Positions 4,342 through 12,755 of a DNA stretch of 21,714 nt are shown here, in pieces (positions within the stretch are counted from its first letter, which is position 1; each line of letters opens with the position of its first letter). The notes under the pieces were generated by a model. It made no database searches. It was not told where the DNA came from and was given only the letters and a program-made list of their open reading frames with translations. Source of the DNA: a virus; IMG/VR virus record IMGVR_UViG_3300009172_000076, positions 1 through 21,714 of that record; one strand, written 5' to 3'. The position numbers were made by a program, and so were the translations under genes.

Positions 4342-4431
4342 ATGAGTGATTTATTATTTTATATTAAGTGGGGAATAATCGGGTTTGTAATCGGTTGGCC
4401 CATTGGTTACGCAATAGGAACATTTATCTAA
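4342..4431 (+). CDS. 29-residue single-span membrane peptide
   Basis: ATG 4342 to TAA 4431 encodes 29 residues beginning MSDLLFYIKWGIIGF, almost wholly one transmembrane helix (residues about 10-28) with small-residue GxxxG-like spacing (GFVIGWPIG). It starts 2 nt after the DUF3310 stop and its stop overlaps the ketosynthase ATG (TAATG), a classic coupling arrangement, which is the main evidence that it is translated. AGGAA (4416-4420) within it serves the next gene. It could be a membrane tether or regulator for the lipid enzymes that follow. Confidence 0.6.
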   Translation: MSDLLFYIKWGIIGFVIGWPIGYAIGTFI

Positions 4432-5594
4432 TGAAAGATCGAATAGTAATTACTGGTGTTGGTTTGGTGGACACACTCGGAACATATCCAATGGAGTGTT
4501 TTGAGAACATGATCAGTGATCACTATGAACACCCAGTTGATTTTAAGACAGATATAGAGTCTCTCAAAGGATTGGTGTGTTTCAAGTCACGTGATGTGAA
4601 CTATACGATTCCAGCTGGTATTCGTAAACCAGTCTTCGGTTCTCTATCAACAGCATCTAAAAACGCTCTTCATGTTGTACAACAGGCAATGGGAGATATC
4701 GACAGTACCGATGTCGCGGTTGTATTCAGTTCGATTGCAGGAAAGGAAGGTATTAGGAATACAGACTTCTGTAATAAGATGGAGGGTGGTAAACGACTAT
4801 CCCCCCGAACTGCTGTACAGTATCTGAGGGACTTCTCCGCAGGGGTAATCAGTCAGACATTCGACTTCCGTGGTGCGTGTGTCAGTATGGATGCCGCTTG
4901 TGCGACTGGACTGTACTCTATTGATTATGCAATACACCTACTGGACACACATAGGTTTGTTATTGTTGGTGGGACAGATAATCCTGCTATGGATGATAAT
5001 ATGTTCATCTTCAGTCAGTTGGGTGCGCTTGGCACTGCGTCAAAACCCTTTGATAAGAAACGTGATGGGTTCGTCATGGGCGAAGGTGCGGGTGCCTTGT
5101 TATTAGAGAAAGAGTCTGAAGCACGGTTACGTGGTGCGAACATCATTGGGTACATTAACACCGTGTCTCACCATTCAGATGGTGCACTTGGTACACCTAC
5201 TGCACCAGACCCAAACAGTACGGGATCAATTGCGTCTATGACATCTGTCACCCAGAATATAGTTGGAGATGTTGCCTTTGTTAACGCACATGGTACATCA
5301 ACACCAATGGGAGATGACCTAGAGTACAATGCGATTCAGGAAGTCTTACCCAAAGTTCCGGTGATTAGTTTCAAGTCAAAGATTGGACACTCTCTTGCGG
5401 CCAGTGGTATCAATGAAACAATCTATAGTCTGTTGTGTCTCTATAACGGGGTTATACCGAAGAACTTTAATATAGATGAGTGTGACCATGAGTTTGTTTA
5501 TAAATACAAGCATCGATTGACAAGTAAAATTGCTGTGAAGAACTCGTTCGCATTTAGTGGAAGGTCTTCGTCACTGGTTCTGGAGGTAGAATGA
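4431..5594 (+). CDS. Beta-ketoacyl-ACP synthase (KAS I/II, FabF-like)
   Basis: Thiolase-fold enzyme that condenses acyl groups with malonyl-ACP in fatty-acid elongation. 387 residues, slightly shorter than bacterial FabF (~410). The N-terminus RIVITGVGLV is typical. The catalytic triad is complete: Cys157 in DAACATG, His287 in VNAHGTSTP, His320 in KSKIGHS. The usual C-terminal GFGG loop reads AFSG (about 374-377), a change in a loop near the active site that may affect acyl choice. Start 4431 overlaps the upstream membrane-peptide stop; an in-frame extension from 4368 is rejected because it reads through that gene. The 3' end overlaps the desaturase by 4 nt. A phage-borne KAS is uncommon. It might instead act on a polyketide-like substrate. 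Confidence 0.9.
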   Translation: MKDRIVITGVGLVDTLGTYPMECFENMISDHYEHPVDFKTDIESLKGLVCFKSRDVNYTIPAGIRKPVFGSLSTASKNALHVVQQAMGDIDSTDVAVVFSSIAGKEGIRNTDFCNKMEGGKRLSPRTAVQYLRDFSAGVISQTFDFRGACVSMDAACATGLYSIDYAIHLLDTHRFVIVGGTDNPAMDDNMFIFSQLGALGTASKPFDKKRDGFVMGEGAGALLLEKESEARLRGANIIGYINTVSHHSDGALGTPTAPDPNSTGSIASMTSVTQNIVGDVAFVNAHGTSTPMGDDLEYNAIQEVLPKVPVISFKSKIGHSLAASGINETIYSLLCLYNGVIPKNFNIDECDHEFVYKYKHRLTSKIAVKNSFAFSGRSSSLVLEVE

Positions 5595-6304
5595 TAACTG
5601 AATATCTAGGTAAAAACAGTGGGTACGTACATACAATATTTTATATAACGTGTGTACTCTTTACTGTGTTGTGGGTGCCGACATTATCAGTTGTCGAGTT
5701 CTTAGTCTGGTTTGTCGGTGCTCATACTTTTGTCGGATATCTAGTCTCTGCTTTCCAACATCGATACTGTGCACATAAGAGTTGGCAACCGTCAAGGTTC
5801 GTTGAAGTTCTCAGTGTTTTCCTGTGTGCCGGATTCGTGTTGATACCGAATATGGGATGGGCATCTGTCCACAAAAATCACCACAGATACACCGATACCG
5901 AGAAAGACCCACATGGTAATGTGCATAGTGTCTGGGATAACTTCATGGCATTCAACATTGCCCCCTCAAAACATGGTTGGCCTCGATGGATGTTCCGTGA
6001 CCTACTGTACCTTTACCAATTAAAATACTATTGGGAAATTGCGATCCTCTTTGGGGCATTGATGTTTGTGATTGGTATTGGTGAACTATGGTTATCGACT
6101 ATTGCTGTTGCATACATCTTCCAAGTCACTCTCAATATTGTAGGTCACCCAAATAGAAGTCCTGCTAATAGACCGTGGTTGGGACTATTATACAGTGGTG
6201 AACTATACCACAAGAACCACCATGATAACCCCAGCCTATCTAGGTTTGGTTTGATCGATGTTCCATACCTTTTATTCATAAAGTTCTTAGATACCAAGAA
6301 ATAA
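5591..6304 (+). CDS. Membrane fatty-acid desaturase (acyl-CoA/acyl-lipid delta-9 type)
   Basis: Introduces a double bond into fatty acyl chains using a di-iron centre. 237 residues with about four membrane helices. The three histidine boxes are present: HRYCAH (57-62), HKNHH (94-98) and HKNHH (207-211), together with the NIVGH extra ligand region. Short forms like this occur in bacteria and marine phages. ATG 5591 follows GGAGG (5582-5586) and overlaps the ketosynthase stop, so the two enzymes are translated together. An electron donor (ferredoxin or cytochrome b5) is not encoded nearby and would come from the host. Confidence 0.92.
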   Translation: MITEYLGKNSGYVHTIFYITCVLFTVLWVPTLSVVEFLVWFVGAHTFVGYLVSAFQHRYCAHKSWQPSRFVEVLSVFLCAGFVLIPNMGWASVHKNHHRYTDTEKDPHGNVHSVWDNFMAFNIAPSKHGWPRWMFRDLLYLYQLKYYWEIAILFGALMFVIGIGELWLSTIAVAYIFQVTLNIVGHPNRSPANRPWLGLLYSGELYHKNHHDNPSLSRFGLIDVPYLLFIKFLDTKK

Positions 6305-6940: not shown

Positions 6941-7219
6941 ATGGATATACTAACCCTCATTTCAGAATTGGGGTTTCCTATTGCATCTGCCTTAATAGGT
7001 GGTTTCTTTATGTTTCTGACACTAAAGTATATTATGGATGGTGTGATAGGTCAGGTGAAATCCCTCAAAGGTATCGTAGGTAGCCTTGATAATCGTGTCA
7101 AAACTATGAATCATGATATGATTCGTATGGATACTACCATGTGTGTTGTTCTGGGAATAAGACCAGACCTCAATCGTATTAGTCGTGCAGACGGTAAGAA
7201 CGATGCGAGGAGAGATTAA
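6941..7219 (+). CDS. Membrane protein, GFPI family (paralogue of 7695)
   Basis: 92 residues. One N-terminal membrane segment (about 10-32, GFPIASALIGGFFMFLTLKYIM) followed by a helical, likely coiled-coil domain (KSLKGIVGSLDNRVKTMNHDMIRMD) and a charged tail. The N-terminal pattern MD-x8-GFPI-x-x-A is shared with the protein at 7695, so the two are paralogues and the ATG at 6941 is the natural start despite the very close late promoter. I recall similar proteins in marine T4-like phages without known function. Size and topology are compatible with a holin, but the long coiled-coil tail is not typical. Confidence 0.78.
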   Translation: MDILTLISELGFPIASALIGGFFMFLTLKYIMDGVIGQVKSLKGIVGSLDNRVKTMNHDMIRMDTTMCVVLGIRPDLNRISRADGKNDARRD

Positions 7220-7695
7220 TGATCGATCCAGTATCCGCAGTAATGACAGCAACTGCCGCATTCAATGGTATTAAGAAATTAGTAGAACGTGGTCAAGACA
7301 TGGAACACACGTTTACACAGATTGGCAAGTGGTACGGTGCCGTTAGTGATTTTAACGAAGCGAAGAGACAGGCGGAGAACCCTCCACTCTTTCGTAAGTT
7401 GATCAACAAGTCTTCGGTAGAAGAAGAAGCAATGAACATCTTCATCTCTAACAAGAAGATTAAAGAAGAAGAGACCCAGTTGCGTGAGCTCTTACTCTAT
7501 TCCTATGGCCCCAGTGCATATCAGGAATTAACTCAGTTACGGAGAGACATCCGAGAGAAGAGGGAAAGGGACGTGTATGCACAAGCGAGGAAACGGAAGT
7601 CACTCTTCTGGAACGCCCTTGGTTGGACATCAGTACTGGTGTTAGGTTATGGATTCTTCATAGTATTTAAACTCATATATTCGAATATCCCGTAA
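7219..7695 (+). CDS. Coiled-coil protein with C-terminal membrane anchor
   Basis: 158 residues: an N-terminal Ala-rich segment (MIDPVSAVMTATAAFNGIKK), a long charged helical region (about 55-130) and a C-terminal membrane helix (about 131-152, ALGWTSVLVLGYGFFIVFKL). It shares single-base overlaps with both neighbours, between the two GFPI paralogues, so the three are likely a complex or act together. I recall MIDPVSA-type proteins in marine myophages; their function is unknown. With both flanking proteins membrane-anchored, a role in the inner membrane during late infection (lysis timing or support of secretion) is a reasonable inference. Confidence 0.77.
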   Translation: MIDPVSAVMTATAAFNGIKKLVERGQDMEHTFTQIGKWYGAVSDFNEAKRQAENPPLFRKLINKSSVEEEAMNIFISNKKIKEEETQLRELLLYSYGPSAYQELTQLRRDIREKRERDVYAQARKRKSLFWNALGWTSVLVLGYGFFIVFKLIYSNIP

Positions 7696-7943
7696 TGGAT
7701 GTTGTATCAGTAGTTAACGATTTCGGTTTTCCGATAGTTGCGGCTGTCGGTATGCTTTATATGATTTACTTTGTGTGGAAGACCATTACAAACGAAGTCG
7801 AAAAGAACTTGTCCGAAACAATGACGGTGTTGATAGGTCTCATTGACCGTATCAGGATGTTGGATAATGATATAATTAGATTGCAACAGAAGTTAGACAC
7901 CGCAATCGAAATGAGGAGAAAAACAGATGAAGAAGAGATATAG
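7695..7943 (+). CDS. Membrane protein, GFPI family (paralogue of 6941)
   Basis: 82 residues with the same plan as the 6941 product: MDVVSVVNDFGFPIVAAVGM, a membrane helix, then a heptad-like helix (LSETMTVLIGLIDRIRMLDNDI continuing into a basic tail). Sequence identity is concentrated in the N-terminal GFPI motif and the helix ending DxIRx. The start overlaps the previous stop (TAATG) and the end overlaps csgF by 17 nt. The duplication with divergence of two small membrane proteins in one operon recalls holin/antiholin pairs, but there is no direct evidence. Confidence 0.77.
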   Translation: MDVVSVVNDFGFPIVAAVGMLYMIYFVWKTITNEVEKNLSETMTVLIGLIDRIRMLDNDIIRLQQKLDTAIEMRRKTDEEEI

Positions 7944-8412
7944 TTGGATACAACTCTTTGAGGGTACGTCACTGACAGTTGCGATGATTCTGATGATGTT
8001 GATAATCACAGAAGTATCAGTTGCCGCACCCATAGAGCACAAATTCAAATCTCCTTCCTTCAGTGGTATTAATCAGTCTAGTCACTATTTGACGATAGAG
8101 AACCAAGAGACCTCTAGGAAACAGGCGATAAAACAAGAGATTGAAGACCTCCAAGAACAACTGGAGAGGGACGCAGAGAATACTACTCTAGCAAAATTTA
8201 TTAGGAATGTGGAATCACGTATTTACTCTACACTATCCAGACAGATCGTTGACGGTATGTTCGGAGAGAACCCAAGCGACACGGGTTCGTTTAACATCGA
8301 AGGTACGGGCATATCATACGTTACAGACGGTGATAACGTAATATTAACAATAACAGACGAGAACGGTAATGTCACGACTATTACTATTCCCCTTGGTGAT
8401 TTTGGTATCTAG
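7927..8412 (+). CDS. csgF: CsgF-like curli assembly factor
   Basis: CsgF binds the CsgG outer-membrane pore at its extracellular mouth and helps place the fibre nucleator. 161 residues (E. coli 138) with a long Sec signal (1-33, cleavage near SVA/AP). The mature N-terminus HKFKSPSFSGIN mirrors the CsgF pattern FxFRNPNFGGN, the part that plugs into CsgG. The middle helix FIRNVESRIYSTLSRQIVDG (91-110) matches FTQAIQSQILGGL, and the C-terminal strands (YVTDGDNVILTITDENGN) match the CsgF beta region. An insertion at about 60-85 (charged, helical) is extra to the E. coli form. It precedes csgG with a 44-nt overlap, so the pair is coupled. Confidence 0.88.
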   Translation: MKKRYSWIQLFEGTSLTVAMILMMLIITEVSVAAPIEHKFKSPSFSGINQSSHYLTIENQETSRKQAIKQEIEDLQEQLERDAENTTLAKFIRNVESRIYSTLSRQIVDGMFGENPSDTGSFNIEGTGISYVTDGDNVILTITDENGNVTTITIPLGDFGI

Positions 8413-9169
8413 TTGTGCCAGTCTCGGAGGAGGTAATTTCGAGATACCAAGTGTGGAAGAACCGAAAGTACAACTTACTCTGTTACAGAAAGAGTTAAAG
8501 AATGTTTCGGAACCGACTAGGAAACCCACGGTGGCAGTGTATGAATTCACTGACCAGACGGGACAGAAGAGACAGAACAGTAGTGGCGGAACCTCATTCA
8601 GTTCTGCGGTTACTCAGGCACCCAATGTATATTTGATAAGAGCATTGACACGTGCATCCAACGGAAACTTCTTCCGAGTGGTTGACCGTCAAATTATTGA
8701 CCATGTGACGAGGGAACGACAGTTAATCCGTCAAACCCGACAATCATACGAGGGAAACGACTCTCAGAAGCTGCCAGCACTCACTTTTGCTGGCATGATA
8801 ATTGCAGGAGGTATAGTAGGGTACGATACCTCTGTTGACACAGGCGGAGCTGGTGCTAGATATCTTGGCATCGGTACTTCCCGTGAATATAGTAGAGACA
8901 CTGTGACTATCAATATTCGATTAGTGTCTGTGGCAACAGGTGAGGTTTTACTTGATGTGATATCAAGCAAGACCATACTCTCCACCGCTTTTGGCGGAGA
9001 TGTGTTTAAATTTATCGAACAGGGTACTGAACTGGTTGAGATTGAATCGGGCAGTACAAAAAACGAATCCGTTTCCATTGCAACACAAAGGGCGATAGAA
9101 GCGGGAGTCTTGGAACTTATACTGAGAGGAAGTAAGTATGGTTTCTGGACGCTTAATGGAGAGAAGTAA
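8369..9169 (+). CDS. csgG: CsgG-like outer-membrane secretion pore lipoprotein
   Basis: CsgG forms a nonameric outer-membrane channel that secretes unfolded curlin subunits. 266 residues (E. coli 277). The lipoprotein signal is short, with lipobox LVSSC (Cys16). Landmarks shared with E. coli CsgG, by eye: VAVYEFTDQTGQ (56-66), the loop ending TSFSSAV (75-81), whose Phe77 would correspond to constriction Phe56 while Asn55 becomes Ser, GGIVGYDTSVDTGGAGARY (147-165), IRLVSVATGEVL (183-194) and SKTILS (200-205). The last ~15 residues of the E. coli protein are missing. ATG 8369 lies inside csgF, and the overlap encodes the whole signal peptide. No disabling changes are seen. Confidence 0.94.
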   Translation: MSRLLLFPLVILVSSCASLGGGNFEIPSVEEPKVQLTLLQKELKNVSEPTRKPTVAVYEFTDQTGQKRQNSSGGTSFSSAVTQAPNVYLIRALTRASNGNFFRVVDRQIIDHVTRERQLIRQTRQSYEGNDSQKLPALTFAGMIIAGGIVGYDTSVDTGGAGARYLGIGTSREYSRDTVTINIRLVSVATGEVLLDVISSKTILSTAFGGDVFKFIEQGTELVEIESGSTKNESVSIATQRAIEAGVLELILRGSKYGFWTLNGEK

Positions 9170-9170
9170 A

Positions 9171-9905
9171 ATGAACGCAAAGCAAACGGGTGCGATTCCT
9201 ATGTTCGCTATGATGTTCGTGATTGGTGCTGTGTATGCAGACAATGAAATATATATTGATCAAGTAGGAAGTAGTACTGCTATCGAGATTATTCAAGATG
9301 GTAGTGGCAACAAAATAGGTGGCGGACTCACTGATGAAACAAAGATGTTACTCAGTGGTGACGATATGGACATTAACTTAAACTTCAGTGGTTCTACGAA
9401 CAACTTGATTGGTTCCCTGATTGGTTCTAATTCGGTACTAGACGTAGACGTGACAGGGTCAGGTAACGACCTGTTCTTTGATGTTGATAAAGATAATGCC
9501 TATGGCGCTACAGGCGGGAACTATCTCGTATCTATCACTGGTGGTAACAACGCAGTGGACTTTGATTTTGGTTCACTTGATACCGCAAACGATACGGACT
9601 TTGACTTTATATTGGACGGTGATTTTAACACTGGCGATATAAACATAGATGCATCTAGTCTGACATTCGACATGGATGTGATATCAGATAATTCCAACCT
9701 AGATTATTCAGCAACTGGTTATGATGGCCATCGGTTTATATTGACTGGTACAGGAAACTATTGGGACATTGATGTTACCCAAGAGTCTACTCTACAGTCT
9801 GATTATTTGGAGATATATTATAGTGGTTCAGGCACATCTACCCAAAACGCTACTGTTTGTATTGTTCAGTCTGACGGTGGTTTCGTCAACACTTGCGGCC
9901 AGTAA
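9171..9905 (+). CDS. Curlin-repeat-like secreted protein (candidate fibre subunit)
   Basis: 244 residues with a Sec signal (cleavage near VYA/DN, residue 23). Right after it is one clean curlin-type unit: Q31-x-G33-x-x-T36-x4-Q42-x4-N47 (IDQVGSSTAIEIIQDGSGN), which matches the CsgA/CsgB QxGxxN...Q...N pattern. Further Gly/Asn turns follow at uneven spacing (SGSTN 73-77, GSGN 96-99, TGGN 114-117, TGGNN 123-127, TGTGN 192-196), separated by strongly alternating Asp/hydrophobic strands (DVDV, VDFDFG, DFDFIL). A Cys pair (230, 242) ends the protein. ATG 9171 starts 1 nt after csgG, which suggests it is the CsgG client. It could alternatively be another beta-solenoid adhesin. No clear extra canonical units. 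Confidence 0.72.
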   Translation: MNAKQTGAIPMFAMMFVIGAVYADNEIYIDQVGSSTAIEIIQDGSGNKIGGGLTDETKMLLSGDDMDINLNFSGSTNNLIGSLIGSNSVLDVDVTGSGNDLFFDVDKDNAYGATGGNYLVSITGGNNAVDFDFGSLDTANDTDFDFILDGDFNTGDINIDASSLTFDMDVISDNSNLDYSATGYDGHRFILTGTGNYWDIDVTQESTLQSDYLEIYYSGSGTSTQNATVCIVQSDGGFVNTCGQ

Positions 9906-10938
9906 TGACGTAGGTTTGGTTGACCGAGCAGTTGGATGGAGACAGATAGTAAGGAATGAACAACCCTTAGAACCCAACAAGGGTGAAGAGGTGATATCTA
10001 AGGACGATCTTCGCACAGGCGAGGGTCGTTTGCAGGTACGATTCAGAGATGACAGTAAATTAAGAATGACCGAACACACACGTATTGTGATTGACAATGT
10101 AGTGTTTGATGATGACCCAAGCAAGTCTGACTTGGCGATGACCTTTGCCCAAGGTACTGCAAGATTCATATCTGGTCAGTTGGGTAAGGTAGACAAAGAG
10201 AATATCAGACTCAAGACCCCTACCGCATCTATCGGTATCAGGGGTACAGACTTCACAGTAACCGTTGATGAGTTCGGTAAGACGCTCGTGGTACTTTTGC
10301 CAGACGTTAACGGAATCTCTTCGGGTGAGATTATTGTTTCGACAATGACAGGTGAAGTCACACTCAACAAACCTTTCCAGTCTACCACAGTAGACGTGAT
10401 GGAGAACCCCCCTAGTGCGCCAGCAATCCTAGACCTTACTCTGGATATGTTGAACAACATTATGATTATCAATCCCCCTAAAGAGAAACAGTCTAAAGAA
10501 GACTTCATGGATACTATAAACGCATCCAAGGGCATTAGTTCGTTAGACGTGGACTTTCTTAACGAAGACTTGTTACAAGAAGAAGAACTTGGGAAAGACT
10601 ATCTGGAATTTAATGAACTCGACATCAACTACTTGGACGTTGACTTGTTAGAAGACCTACTGGATAATTTCGATTCTTTGGGAGAGGACGTGTTGCAAGA
10701 ACAACAGTCTAGTGGCGACTTACGTATCGAAGGTACTGAAGAAGGGTTCGACCCAGTCACACAGGTTGCCACTATAGTAGAGGGCGACAAGGTGACGATA
10801 CGCAGAGAGGTGAATGACAAGGTGGTTATCTCGGTAGACAAGTCAGCTGCGACAGTTATAAGTATAGAGCAGGATGGTAAGGAACTAGAGGCAATCAAAC
10901 TTAATGGTATCGACAACTTGATAAGTATAGTACAATGA
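9823..10938 (+). CDS. FecR-domain periplasmic/exported protein with curlin-like C-terminus
   Basis: 371 residues from GTG 9823 (GGAG at 9809-9812). This start gives a good Sec signal (LPKTLLFVLFSLTVVSSTLA, cleavage near 25) encoded wholly inside the end of the curlin-like gene. The FecR domain (about 30-150) shows LRTGEGRLQVRFRDDSKLRM, MTFAQGTARFISG and TPTASIGIRGTDF, all typical. Next comes an acidic Leu/Asp-rich stretch with repeated LDVDFLNEDLL / LDINYLDVDLLEDLL units (about 235-285). The last 22 residues (350-371) read Q-D-G-x4-A-x3-N-G-x2-N-x5-Q, close to one curlin unit. FecR domains in bacteria often sit beside CHASE2 cyclases, as here (4-nt overlap). A CsgB-like nucleator role is inferred. 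Confidence 0.82.
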   Translation: MVQAHLPKTLLFVLFSLTVVSSTLAASNDVGLVDRAVGWRQIVRNEQPLEPNKGEEVISKDDLRTGEGRLQVRFRDDSKLRMTEHTRIVIDNVVFDDDPSKSDLAMTFAQGTARFISGQLGKVDKENIRLKTPTASIGIRGTDFTVTVDEFGKTLVVLLPDVNGISSGEIIVSTMTGEVTLNKPFQSTTVDVMENPPSAPAILDLTLDMLNNIMIINPPKEKQSKEDFMDTINASKGISSLDVDFLNEDLLQEEELGKDYLEFNELDINYLDVDLLEDLLDNFDSLGEDVLQEQQSSGDLRIEGTEEGFDPVTQVATIVEGDKVTIRREVNDKVVISVDKSAATVISIEQDGKELEAIKLNGIDNLISIVQ

Positions 10939-12755
10939 AGACATGGCACGTATTCGTAACACTTGTGATACTGGTGGGACTGAGGTTACTTGACCCGTTC
11001 CTATTAGAGAGTACTCGACTTTCATTCTTTGACTCATTACAACGTGGTCAGGAGACCCAACTGTCCGAACAGATTGTCCTTGTTGATATTGACGAGGAGA
11101 CTCTGGCAAAGTTTGGTCAGTACCCAATCCCACGTAAGGTAATGGCAGATGAAATCGATAAGATAGAAGGTAGTCTTATTGCGTTCAACATTCTGTTCAG
11201 TGAACCTGACAGGGCGGGTGGAGACGAATACTTTGCGGACATCCTATCGTGGAAGAATACAGTAGTTGCCATTGCACCGTCCAACAGAACCAACACAGAC
11301 TACAGACCTCCCCGTATCGGAACCGCAACGTTCGGTGACAGAGATGCCGAAGACTTCCGACCTTTGGTGGAAGGTATGCTTTTTGCACAACCAGTGATAC
11401 ATGAAGCGGCACTTGGTTATGGAACTATCTCATCCGCACAGGACGTTGATGGTATCATCCGTAGACAACCACTACTAGAAAACTTTGACAACAGACTCTA
11501 TCCCGCATTTGCGTTAGACGTATTGAGGGTTGCAGCCGGAGATTCGTCCTACCAGATATCAACAGACGAGTACGGTATTCAGTTTGTTCGTATTCCCAAG
11601 TTCACACCAATACCCACAGATAGTCAGGGTAACGTTACAGTCGCATACTGGAATGAGTTCAAGAGATATTCCTTTACTGACCTCTCAAGTATACCAGAGG
11701 GGTCTATAATCATCGTAGGCGGGAGTTACGCAGGTTCTAGTGTAGTTAGTACACCTATGGGTTCTATGTATCCGCATGACGTACAAGCAAATCTGGTCAA
11801 GACAATGATCGGGGGTGTGACCATCGAACGACCCCCAGAATTTATTTTCTATGAGCTCTTGACAACTCTTGTATTATGTGGTATAATCCTAGCTCTTCTA
11901 GGGAAGGCTGATATACTAATTTCAGGAGTGTCGTATGTCATCATAATTGGTGGTATTCTGTATGTGGTCAACGAACTATTCAATACCCAGTATCTCCAAC
12001 TAGACCCAACATTCCCAATTATCACATTGACCTTGGTGTTTGCTCACGGTTCCTTTGTTCAGTTCTATGTACAGTTCAAAGCTAAACAACTTATTAAAGG
12101 ACAGTTCGGTACGTACCTATCACCCGACATGGTAGATATGTTGGCCAAAGACCCCAGTCTACTGAAGTTGGGTGGAGAGAAAAAAGAGATGACATTCCTC
12201 TTCATGGACATTGTAGGATTCACCCCCATATCAGAACACTATAAAAACAAGGACGATGCGGAAGGGTTGGTTATACTCATTAATAACTACCTAAATGAGA
12301 TGACTAATATTATCCTAAATAACGGTGGAACCATAGATAAGTATATGGGTGATTGTATCATGGCGTTTTGGAACGCCCCCTTACCTTGTGAGAATCATGC
12401 TGAGATGGCAGTGAAGTCCGCAATAGAAATAGAAGAGAAGACAGATGAACTTAGACAGAGATACATTGCGGAAGGTTTACCACCGATTAACGTTGGAACT
12501 GGTATCAATACTGGGTCTTGTATTGTTGGTAATATGGGTAGTGAGTCACGGTTTGATTATTCAGTCATCGGAGACGCAGTCAACCTTGCCGCAAGACTTG
12601 AAGCAACTGCCGCAAGAGGAGACTATCTTGAATACAAAACTATCTACTCCAAAGCAACCAAAGACCAACTCATAGATATAGAGTCAAGTCCGATAGGACT
12701 CATTAAGGTAAAAGGAAAGGAAGAAGAAATTGAAATCTATACACATAATCGATGA
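10935..12755 (+). CDS. CHASE2-domain class III adenylate/guanylate cyclase
   Basis: 606-residue membrane sensor cyclase making cAMP (or cGMP) from NTP. One N-terminal signal/membrane helix (5-22), a periplasmic CHASE2 sensor (about 25-300, with VLVDIDEETLAKFGQYP and GSIIIVGGSYAG), three membrane helices (about 305-385), a short linker (FGTYLSPDMVDMLAKDP) and a catalytic domain (about 410-600). Catalytic residues look intact: metal-binding Asp425 (FMDIVGFT) and Asp473, base-binding Lys469 (DKYMGD), Asn550 and Arg554 (GDAVNLAARLE). The second base-selecting position is Ser543 where bacterial adenylate cyclases usually have Thr, so ATP is favoured but not certain. Overlaps fecR by 4 nt. Confidence 0.93.
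   Translation: MKTWHVFVTLVILVGLRLLDPFLLESTRLSFFDSLQRGQETQLSEQIVLVDIDEETLAKFGQYPIPRKVMADEIDKIEGSLIAFNILFSEPDRAGGDEYFADILSWKNTVVAIAPSNRTNTDYRPPRIGTATFGDRDAEDFRPLVEGMLFAQPVIHEAALGYGTISSAQDVDGIIRRQPLLENFDNRLYPAFALDVLRVAAGDSSYQISTDEYGIQFVRIPKFTPIPTDSQGNVTVAYWNEFKRYSFTDLSSIPEGSIIIVGGSYAGSSVVSTPMGSMYPHDVQANLVKTMIGGVTIERPPEFIFYELLTTLVLCGIILALLGKADILISGVSYVIIIGGILYVVNELFNTQYLQLDPTFPIITLTLVFAHGSFVQFYVQFKAKQLIKGQFGTYLSPDMVDMLAKDPSLLKLGGEKKEMTFLFMDIVGFTPISEHYKNKDDAEGLVILINNYLNEMTNIILNNGGTIDKYMGDCIMAFWNAPLPCENHAEMAVKSAIEIEEKTDELRQRYIAEGLPPINVGTGINTGSCIVGNMGSESRFDYSVIGDAVNLAARLEATAARGDYLEYKTIYSKATKDQLIDIESSPIGLIKVKGKEEEIEIYTHNR
11859..11887 (+). promoter_or_regulatory. Perfect sigma70 promoter sequence inside the cyclase gene
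   Basis: TTGACA (11859-11864), exactly 17 nt, TATAAT (11882-11887), inside codons for the first membrane helix after CHASE2. If used, it would transcribe the catalytic half and the 12730 gene without the sensor. No leader of family A or B follows it, so activity is uncertain. Confidence 0.4.

Follow-up and report, generated by a model that had tools for sequence, protein, structure and literature searches.

The FecR-domain protein of a phage-encoded curli (type VIII) secretion operon carries a C-terminal tail domain that, among the genomes drawn, is restricted to a CsgF/CsgG context, and the terminal 10-15 residues of this tail resemble a curlin beta-arc at a level above the controls. The order of domains in the protein, the order of genes in the operon and the coupling of the FecR gene to that of a CHASE2 cyclase were likewise established by computation. 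The reading we favor, at about an even chance, is that the protein is a curli-dedicated FecR sensory partner of the cyclase, the tail of which would contact curlin subunits or CsgF/CsgG so that the state of the fibre or of export is turned into cAMP.

The window, as the whole stretch of DNA analysed is called here, comprises positions 1 to 21,714 of the 21,714-nt IMG/VR virus record IMGVR_UViG_3300009172_000076. It is a fragment of a marine T4-like phage, with the corresponding gene content, including a DnaB-like helicase, and the closest isolates judged by the FecR protein are Methylophilales phage Melnitz (MZ577097) and Pelagibacter phage HTVC008M (KC465899). The operon at 7927-12755 encodes, in order, CsgF, CsgG, a curlin-like protein, the FecR protein and the CHASE2 cyclase (Table 1), and so holds all five genes of the phage T8SS module in the order given in PMC9599517. 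The same genes in the same order, with a second curlin in some cases between FecR and cyclase, make up the module of pelagiphages and pelagimyophages, on which PMC7029224 and PMC9004378 are earlier papers. Melnitz and HTVC008M have this second curlin-like gene, as do many far-clade phages, whereas it is absent from the window and from the window clade, in which the gene after FecR is the cyclase in all 30 classified loci and curlin2 in 0; FecR-cyclase adjacency is therefore not universal. The original prediction knew of no described example of such a protein. The five-gene operon with FecR and cyclase had been published for pelagiphages in 2022 (PMC9599517), but the tail was not found described: the available text of the three pelagiphage papers (PMC9599517, PMC7029224, PMC9004378) does not describe a FecR tail, CHASE2 or a curlin likeness, and literature searches on FecR with curli or adhesins beyond these papers turned up no curlin-like FecR tail.

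The product of 9138-9905 scores 14.9 bits against Curlin_rpt, below the 20.7 cut-off, and 18.7 bits in a DNA search, and its family reaches 34 by hhalign against curlin-unit profiles to which family members themselves contributed units. This protein and its family have one strict curlin unit at the mature N-terminus followed by diverged G-x-x-N arcs without Q, and the near-clade version has a Cys-bearing C-terminus (CIVQSDGGFVNTCGQ). Two small single-helix proteins, both of PHROG 18771, are encoded 5' of csgF (6941-7219 and 7695-7943), the latter having a weak match to holin family phrog_4898 (E 1.4e-4). In podophage modules a histidine kinase gene precedes csgF, according to PMC9599517; no kinase domain was found here. 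Genes for a beta-ketoacyl synthase and a fatty acid desaturase are found at 4368-6304, just 5' of the curli operon. PMC7029224 places fabF and desaturase among the genes unique to freshwater fonsimyophages, which are without the curli operon, whereas the window phage combines fabF-type and desaturase genes with a curli operon.

Table 1. Curli operon genes and parts of the FecR protein, by position in the window
Feature	Positions	Strand	Basis
CsgF homologue (T8SS)	7927..8412	+	PF10614 64.7 bits, exceeds cut-off
CsgG homologue (outer-membrane curli pore)	8369..9169	+	PF03783 E 4e-49
Curlin-like secreted protein	9138..9905	+	one clear unit at 9240-9317 (NEIYIDQVGSSTAIEIIQDGSGNKIGG)
FecR protein, predicted signal peptide (residues about 1-25)	9823..9897	+	sequence KTLLFVLFSLTVVSSTLA followed by A; AF2 helix 6-23
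FecR protein, FecR domain (residues about 27-205)	9901..10437	+	PF04773; structure match to PupR 6ovk
FecR protein, acidic Leu/Asp linker (residues about 206-300)	10438..10722	+	sequence; AF2 pLDDT about 46-67
FecR protein, C-terminal all-beta tail domain (residues about 304-371)	10732..10935	+	AF2
FecR protein, curlin-like terminal arc AIKLNGIDNLISIVQ (residues 357-371)	10891..10935	+	hhalign, conservation, codons
CHASE2-domain adenylate/guanylate cyclase	10935..12755	+	PF05226 E 1.7e-39, PF00211 E 1.4e-18

The open frame of the FecR protein is genuine (371 aa, from a GTG codon at 9823 to a stop codon at 10936-10938), and PF04773, scoring 47.4 bits against a cut-off of 24 over residues 61-156 (E 2.7e-12), confirms the FecR-domain protein originally predicted at 9823-10938 as a member of that family. 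The acidic Leu/Asp region said to separate the FecR domain from the C-terminus is also present. PHROG_37870, annotated as of unknown function, matches the protein over its full length (residues 12-371, E 3e-61). AF2 modeling of the whole protein (70-row alignment) gave a confident FecR domain and tail and a low-confidence acidic linker, the mature protein opening directly with the FecR domain after a signal-peptide-like helix at residues 6-23. The FecR domain aligns with the PupR cell-surface signalling domain 6ovk (VIA-align Z 15.1, rmsd 2.4, 131 residues), and shares the periplasmic fold of FecR/PupR anti-sigma signalling domains generally (6ovk, 4m0n; Z 14-15); unlike those proteins, however, the window protein has no cytoplasmic anti-sigma part, has another C-terminal domain, and has no TonB receptor seen adjoining.

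These differences bear on the proposal, made in PMC9599517, that FecR is an iron-dependent regulator of the T8SS. The Pfam name and the PupR/FecR-type fold of the N-terminal domain agree with such a role, but sequence, Pfam and AF2 reveal neither an N-terminal cytoplasmic anti-sigma region nor an inner-membrane helix beyond the signal peptide in the FecR protein, nor was a gene for a sigma factor or a TonB receptor seen adjoining the FecR gene in the window; because the anti-sigma and membrane parts of the FecIR type are missing, iron regulation is very improbable. FecR domains were also observed within open frames of great length, reaching about 7,800 codons (class and phylum hits, e.g., G399, G205 and G765), where they perhaps serve as the anchoring region of large adhesins. 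In this connection, the window's FecR domain also aligns with 5ix9, a cell surface anchoring domain (Z 7.5, 73/76 residues, rmsd 2.3), although a Z below 8 may reflect a common arrangement only. Given the giant open frames and the CHASE2 pairs, the name FecR does not imply iron.

The FecR gene is most closely partnered with that of the CHASE2 cyclase. In the window, the stop of the FecR gene and the start of the cyclase gene overlap by 4 nt (junction CAATGA), so that the gene of a secreted FecR protein is followed directly, on one strand, by that of a CHASE2 membrane protein. The same arrangement of FecR and CHASE2 genes recurs in 41 of 75 tail-less bacterial FecR loci (L112-L186), which were collected without regard to curli. 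The FecR proteins of these 41 loci have signal peptides and are mainly from Campylobacterota, Beta- and Gammaproteobacteria. FecR-CHASE2 is therefore a general pair, with the tail belonging only to its curli-linked version, and the coupling of FecR to the cyclase, in pairs that are common without curli, points to signalling. There are precedents in two bacteria. In Burkholderia, biofilm is under the control of an operon that pairs FecR with a CHASE2 kinase (PMC5192318, in which CHASE2 ligands are described as unknown). In S. meliloti, CHASE2 cyclases increase cAMP once a protein ligand has been detected by an outer-membrane protein (PMC13001267). The BiofilmReg operon of Burkholderia contaminans (PMC5192318) resembles the window in that a signal-peptide FecR-domain protein adjoins a CHASE2 membrane sensor; it differs in encoding a LysM-FecR protein and a CHASE2 histidine kinase, where the window has FecR, acidic linker and tail with a CHASE2 cyclase, in a curli operon. 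On the favored reading, the phage FecR protein would be periplasmic (or outer-membrane-facing) and would act as sensory partner of the cyclase encoded directly 3', with the FecR domain contacting the periplasmic CHASE2 domain.

The tail sets the phage protein apart from these general pairs. Modeled alone (residues 296-371), it was predicted by AF2 with a pLDDT of 92.9 and pTM of 0.80 as seven strands, and is thus modeled as a compact beta domain, its last strand being the curlin-like one, and not evidently as a solenoid repeat. A search for a known fold produced no PDB match above Z 3.3, with merely weak alpha-crystallin-like rows, and the sole strong BFVD match was another phage FecR (A0A6J5LYJ1). 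The domain is common to all phage homologues, with almost fixed last residues; it occurs in phages with and without curlin2, and this rules out the tail as the remnant of a fused second curlin gene. The family profile was run against genomes related to a Hyphomonas MAG, drawn at the level of its family (105), class (385) and phylum (398), and gave a full-length FecR-plus-tail match in that MAG only (G001), all other matches in the drawn genomes being to the FecR domain alone, mostly within much larger open frames. The Hyphomonas locus (L111), on a 705-kb contig, has the same five-gene order as the window, and its chromosomal homologue keeps the tail domain, ends ATIIFGDGEIDPVVLNEGASGSVFILE, and has neither Q. 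A Maricaulis MAG contributed two short contigs, which may be of phage origin, with intermediate versions of the tail (e.g., YTVIFIQDGVSNTVKINGGGDSVIKITQSS and YTVIFIQDGVSKTITINGGGSSVIKIKQG) adjoining CsgF and CsgG. At 15 canonical alphaproteobacterial CsgF/CsgG loci, curlins are present and neither FecR nor cyclase was found.

The original prediction was of a C-terminal curlin-like unit of 22 residues, reading Q350-x-G352-x4-A357-x3-N361-G362-x2-N365-x5-Q371. The letters are as it stated, but a full curlin repeat is ruled out by Pfam and by the spacing in homologues. The Pfam comparison it had proposed gave no match to Curlin_rpt (PF07012) in the window FecR protein at E <= 1, or in any of 19 diverse FecR homologues at E <= 10, and a curlin-unit HMM built here scored the window tail at -3 bits; neither detected any curlin repeat in the window FecR protein, where a CsgB-type protein has several. 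What did stand was a likeness in the last 10-15 residues. By hhalign, a 30-column tail profile aligned with the curlin-unit profile over 15 columns ('di.l.G..n.I.I.Q' in the tail, '.i.i.G..N.v.i.Q' in the curlin unit; prob 84, score 19.2). The highest scores among the controls were 11.6 for other windows of the FecR protein, 13.0 for 150 column shuffles and 10.4 for 1,483 windows taken from 34 other families; reversed columns scored 8.3. In the main profile the curlin units are mostly from the same phages as the FecRs, and thus part of this match could reflect shared operon history. With cell-only curlin units (alphaproteobacterial chromosomal) the tail scored 14.9, other FecR windows no more than 7.3, and the best of 100 shuffles 13.9, so that this version is weaker, 14.9 barely exceeding 13.9. 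The best curlin-HMM match was at the C-terminus in 76 of 99 FecRs with any match, each of them individually weak. The likeness spans one beta-arc of 10-15 residues and not a complete repeat.

Conservation of the tail was examined in 39 near-clade and 78 far-clade homologues (117). The consensus of the last 10-15 residues, ..phi-x-phi-x-G-x-x-[N/T]-x-I-x-I-x-Q, is kept in about 110 homologues, with I367 and I369 conserved at 93-97% and Q371 at 98-100% in both clades. The letters proposed at 352, 357 and 365 do not extend to the whole family: A357 is hardly seen outside the window, the position being P (92%) or D (89%) across the near and far homologues, G352 is G in the near clade only, and position 365 is T (69%) in the near clade, N being mostly far-clade. 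In the far clade, the second curlin gene begins inside the end of the FecR gene, most commonly with a 29-nt overlap (30/78 members; e.g., L051 7010-7038 and L052 6989-7017), such that FecR tail codons and the signal peptide of the next gene are dual coding. The AAT codon of N365 contains, in many far-clade members, the ATG start of that gene (AAT-G), and N365 there is consequently confounded, partly a by-product, and unsafe to take as a curlin N. Codons at the tail otherwise vary synonymously. Ile is encoded by several codons in either clade, and Q371 by both CAA and CAG in the far clade, which rules out there that the terminal Q is a by-product of the 4-nt gene overlap; in the near clade, where the codon is CAA in 39/39, it may in part be one. 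A C-terminal phi-x-phi-x-Q, within three residues of the end, is found in 108/109 unique FecRs and, among the curlins, in 62/98 of the first and 19/38 of the second, compared to 23/2978 background ORFs (0.8%), although the FecR and curlin counts measure conservation and not probability, because homologues are not independent.

It is somewhat unlikely, given these data, that the tail is a beta domain of the T8SS module without curlin contact, with I-x-I-x-Q as a structural last strand, docking CHASE2 or peptidoglycan, and the likeness due to convergence of a short arc. The compact and confident AF2 domain, the confinement of curlin similarity to 10-15 columns, the departure of A357, G352 and N365, which lie outside the last strand, from curlin spacing across homologues, and the SVFILE ending of the Hyphomonas tail all agree with this; on the other hand, the observed profile score was not reached by any of the 1,483 other-family windows or 150 column shuffles, and 108/109 FecRs share their ending with the operon curlins. 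It is unlikely, too, that the tail acts as a heteronucleator or as an anchor, with its terminal strand templating polymerisation of curlin1 (and curlin2) at the surface as CsgB does while the FecR domain holds it to the envelope. E. coli CsgB, which like the window protein belongs to a CsgF/CsgG system, also terminates in a beta strand and then Q (MAIRVTQR), a similar ending being found in curlin2 and FecR, the terminal arc matches curlin-unit profiles, the FecR domain may resemble the anchoring domain 5ix9, and the window-clade operon has no obvious CsgB. CsgB, however, is all curlin repeats, whereas the window protein offers no more than a single arc, set on a globular domain (AF2 pLDDT 93), in addition to its FecR domain; there is no Pfam curlin score, the Q residues are missing in the cellular homologue, the gene is coupled to that of the cyclase, and export of FecR through CsgG is without support. 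The fibre nucleator of the original prediction thus finds no support in a single arc on a compact 7-strand domain with cyclase coupling and a Q-less Hyphomonas homologue, while its more general idea, a link between a sensor domain and the fibre, is plausible. A hybrid of sensor and nucleator, in which the tail would seed or cap the fibre and the FecR domain relay growth to the CHASE2 cyclase, converting amyloid assembly to cAMP during infection, is quite improbable.

We therefore return to the curli-dedicated sensory partner. That the protein is a sensor partner is argued by the 4-nt overlap, the 41/75 FecR-CHASE2 loci and the precedents of PMC5192318 and PMC13001267, and its dedication to curli by occurrence of the tail only with CsgF/CsgG, the 15 canonical loci that are without FecR or cyclase, the arc match and the phi-x-phi-x-Q endings. 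Counted against it are the limitation of the likeness to one arc, the Q-less cellular homologue, the cell-only score, the far-clade codon overlap shaping N365, and FecR-cyclase adjacency that is not universal. A widespread FecR-CHASE2 pair would, on this explanation, have become dedicated to the phage curli (type VIII) secretion operon, with the tail offering a curlin-like edge strand that may bind curlin subunits or the CsgF/CsgG exit complex, and with the state of export or of the fibre signalled as cAMP inside the infected cell. To our knowledge, no cAMP targets are known in Pelagibacter.

In summary, what is new here is a curli-specific tail with a curlin-like end, attached to a general FecR-CHASE2 module within a phage operon that had been described before. 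Curli secretion encoded by phages is common among ocean viruses, and what it serves is debated (sibling capture, superinfection exclusion, a lysis pore, uptake); if FecR is the curli-dedicated partner of the cyclase, the module would do more than make a pore or fibres and would couple the fibre to signalling, and the curli-specific tail is a testable piece of 70 residues. The common FecR-CHASE2 pairing further suggests that orphan FecR-domain proteins generally act as CHASE2 partners, and could aid the search for CHASE2 ligands.
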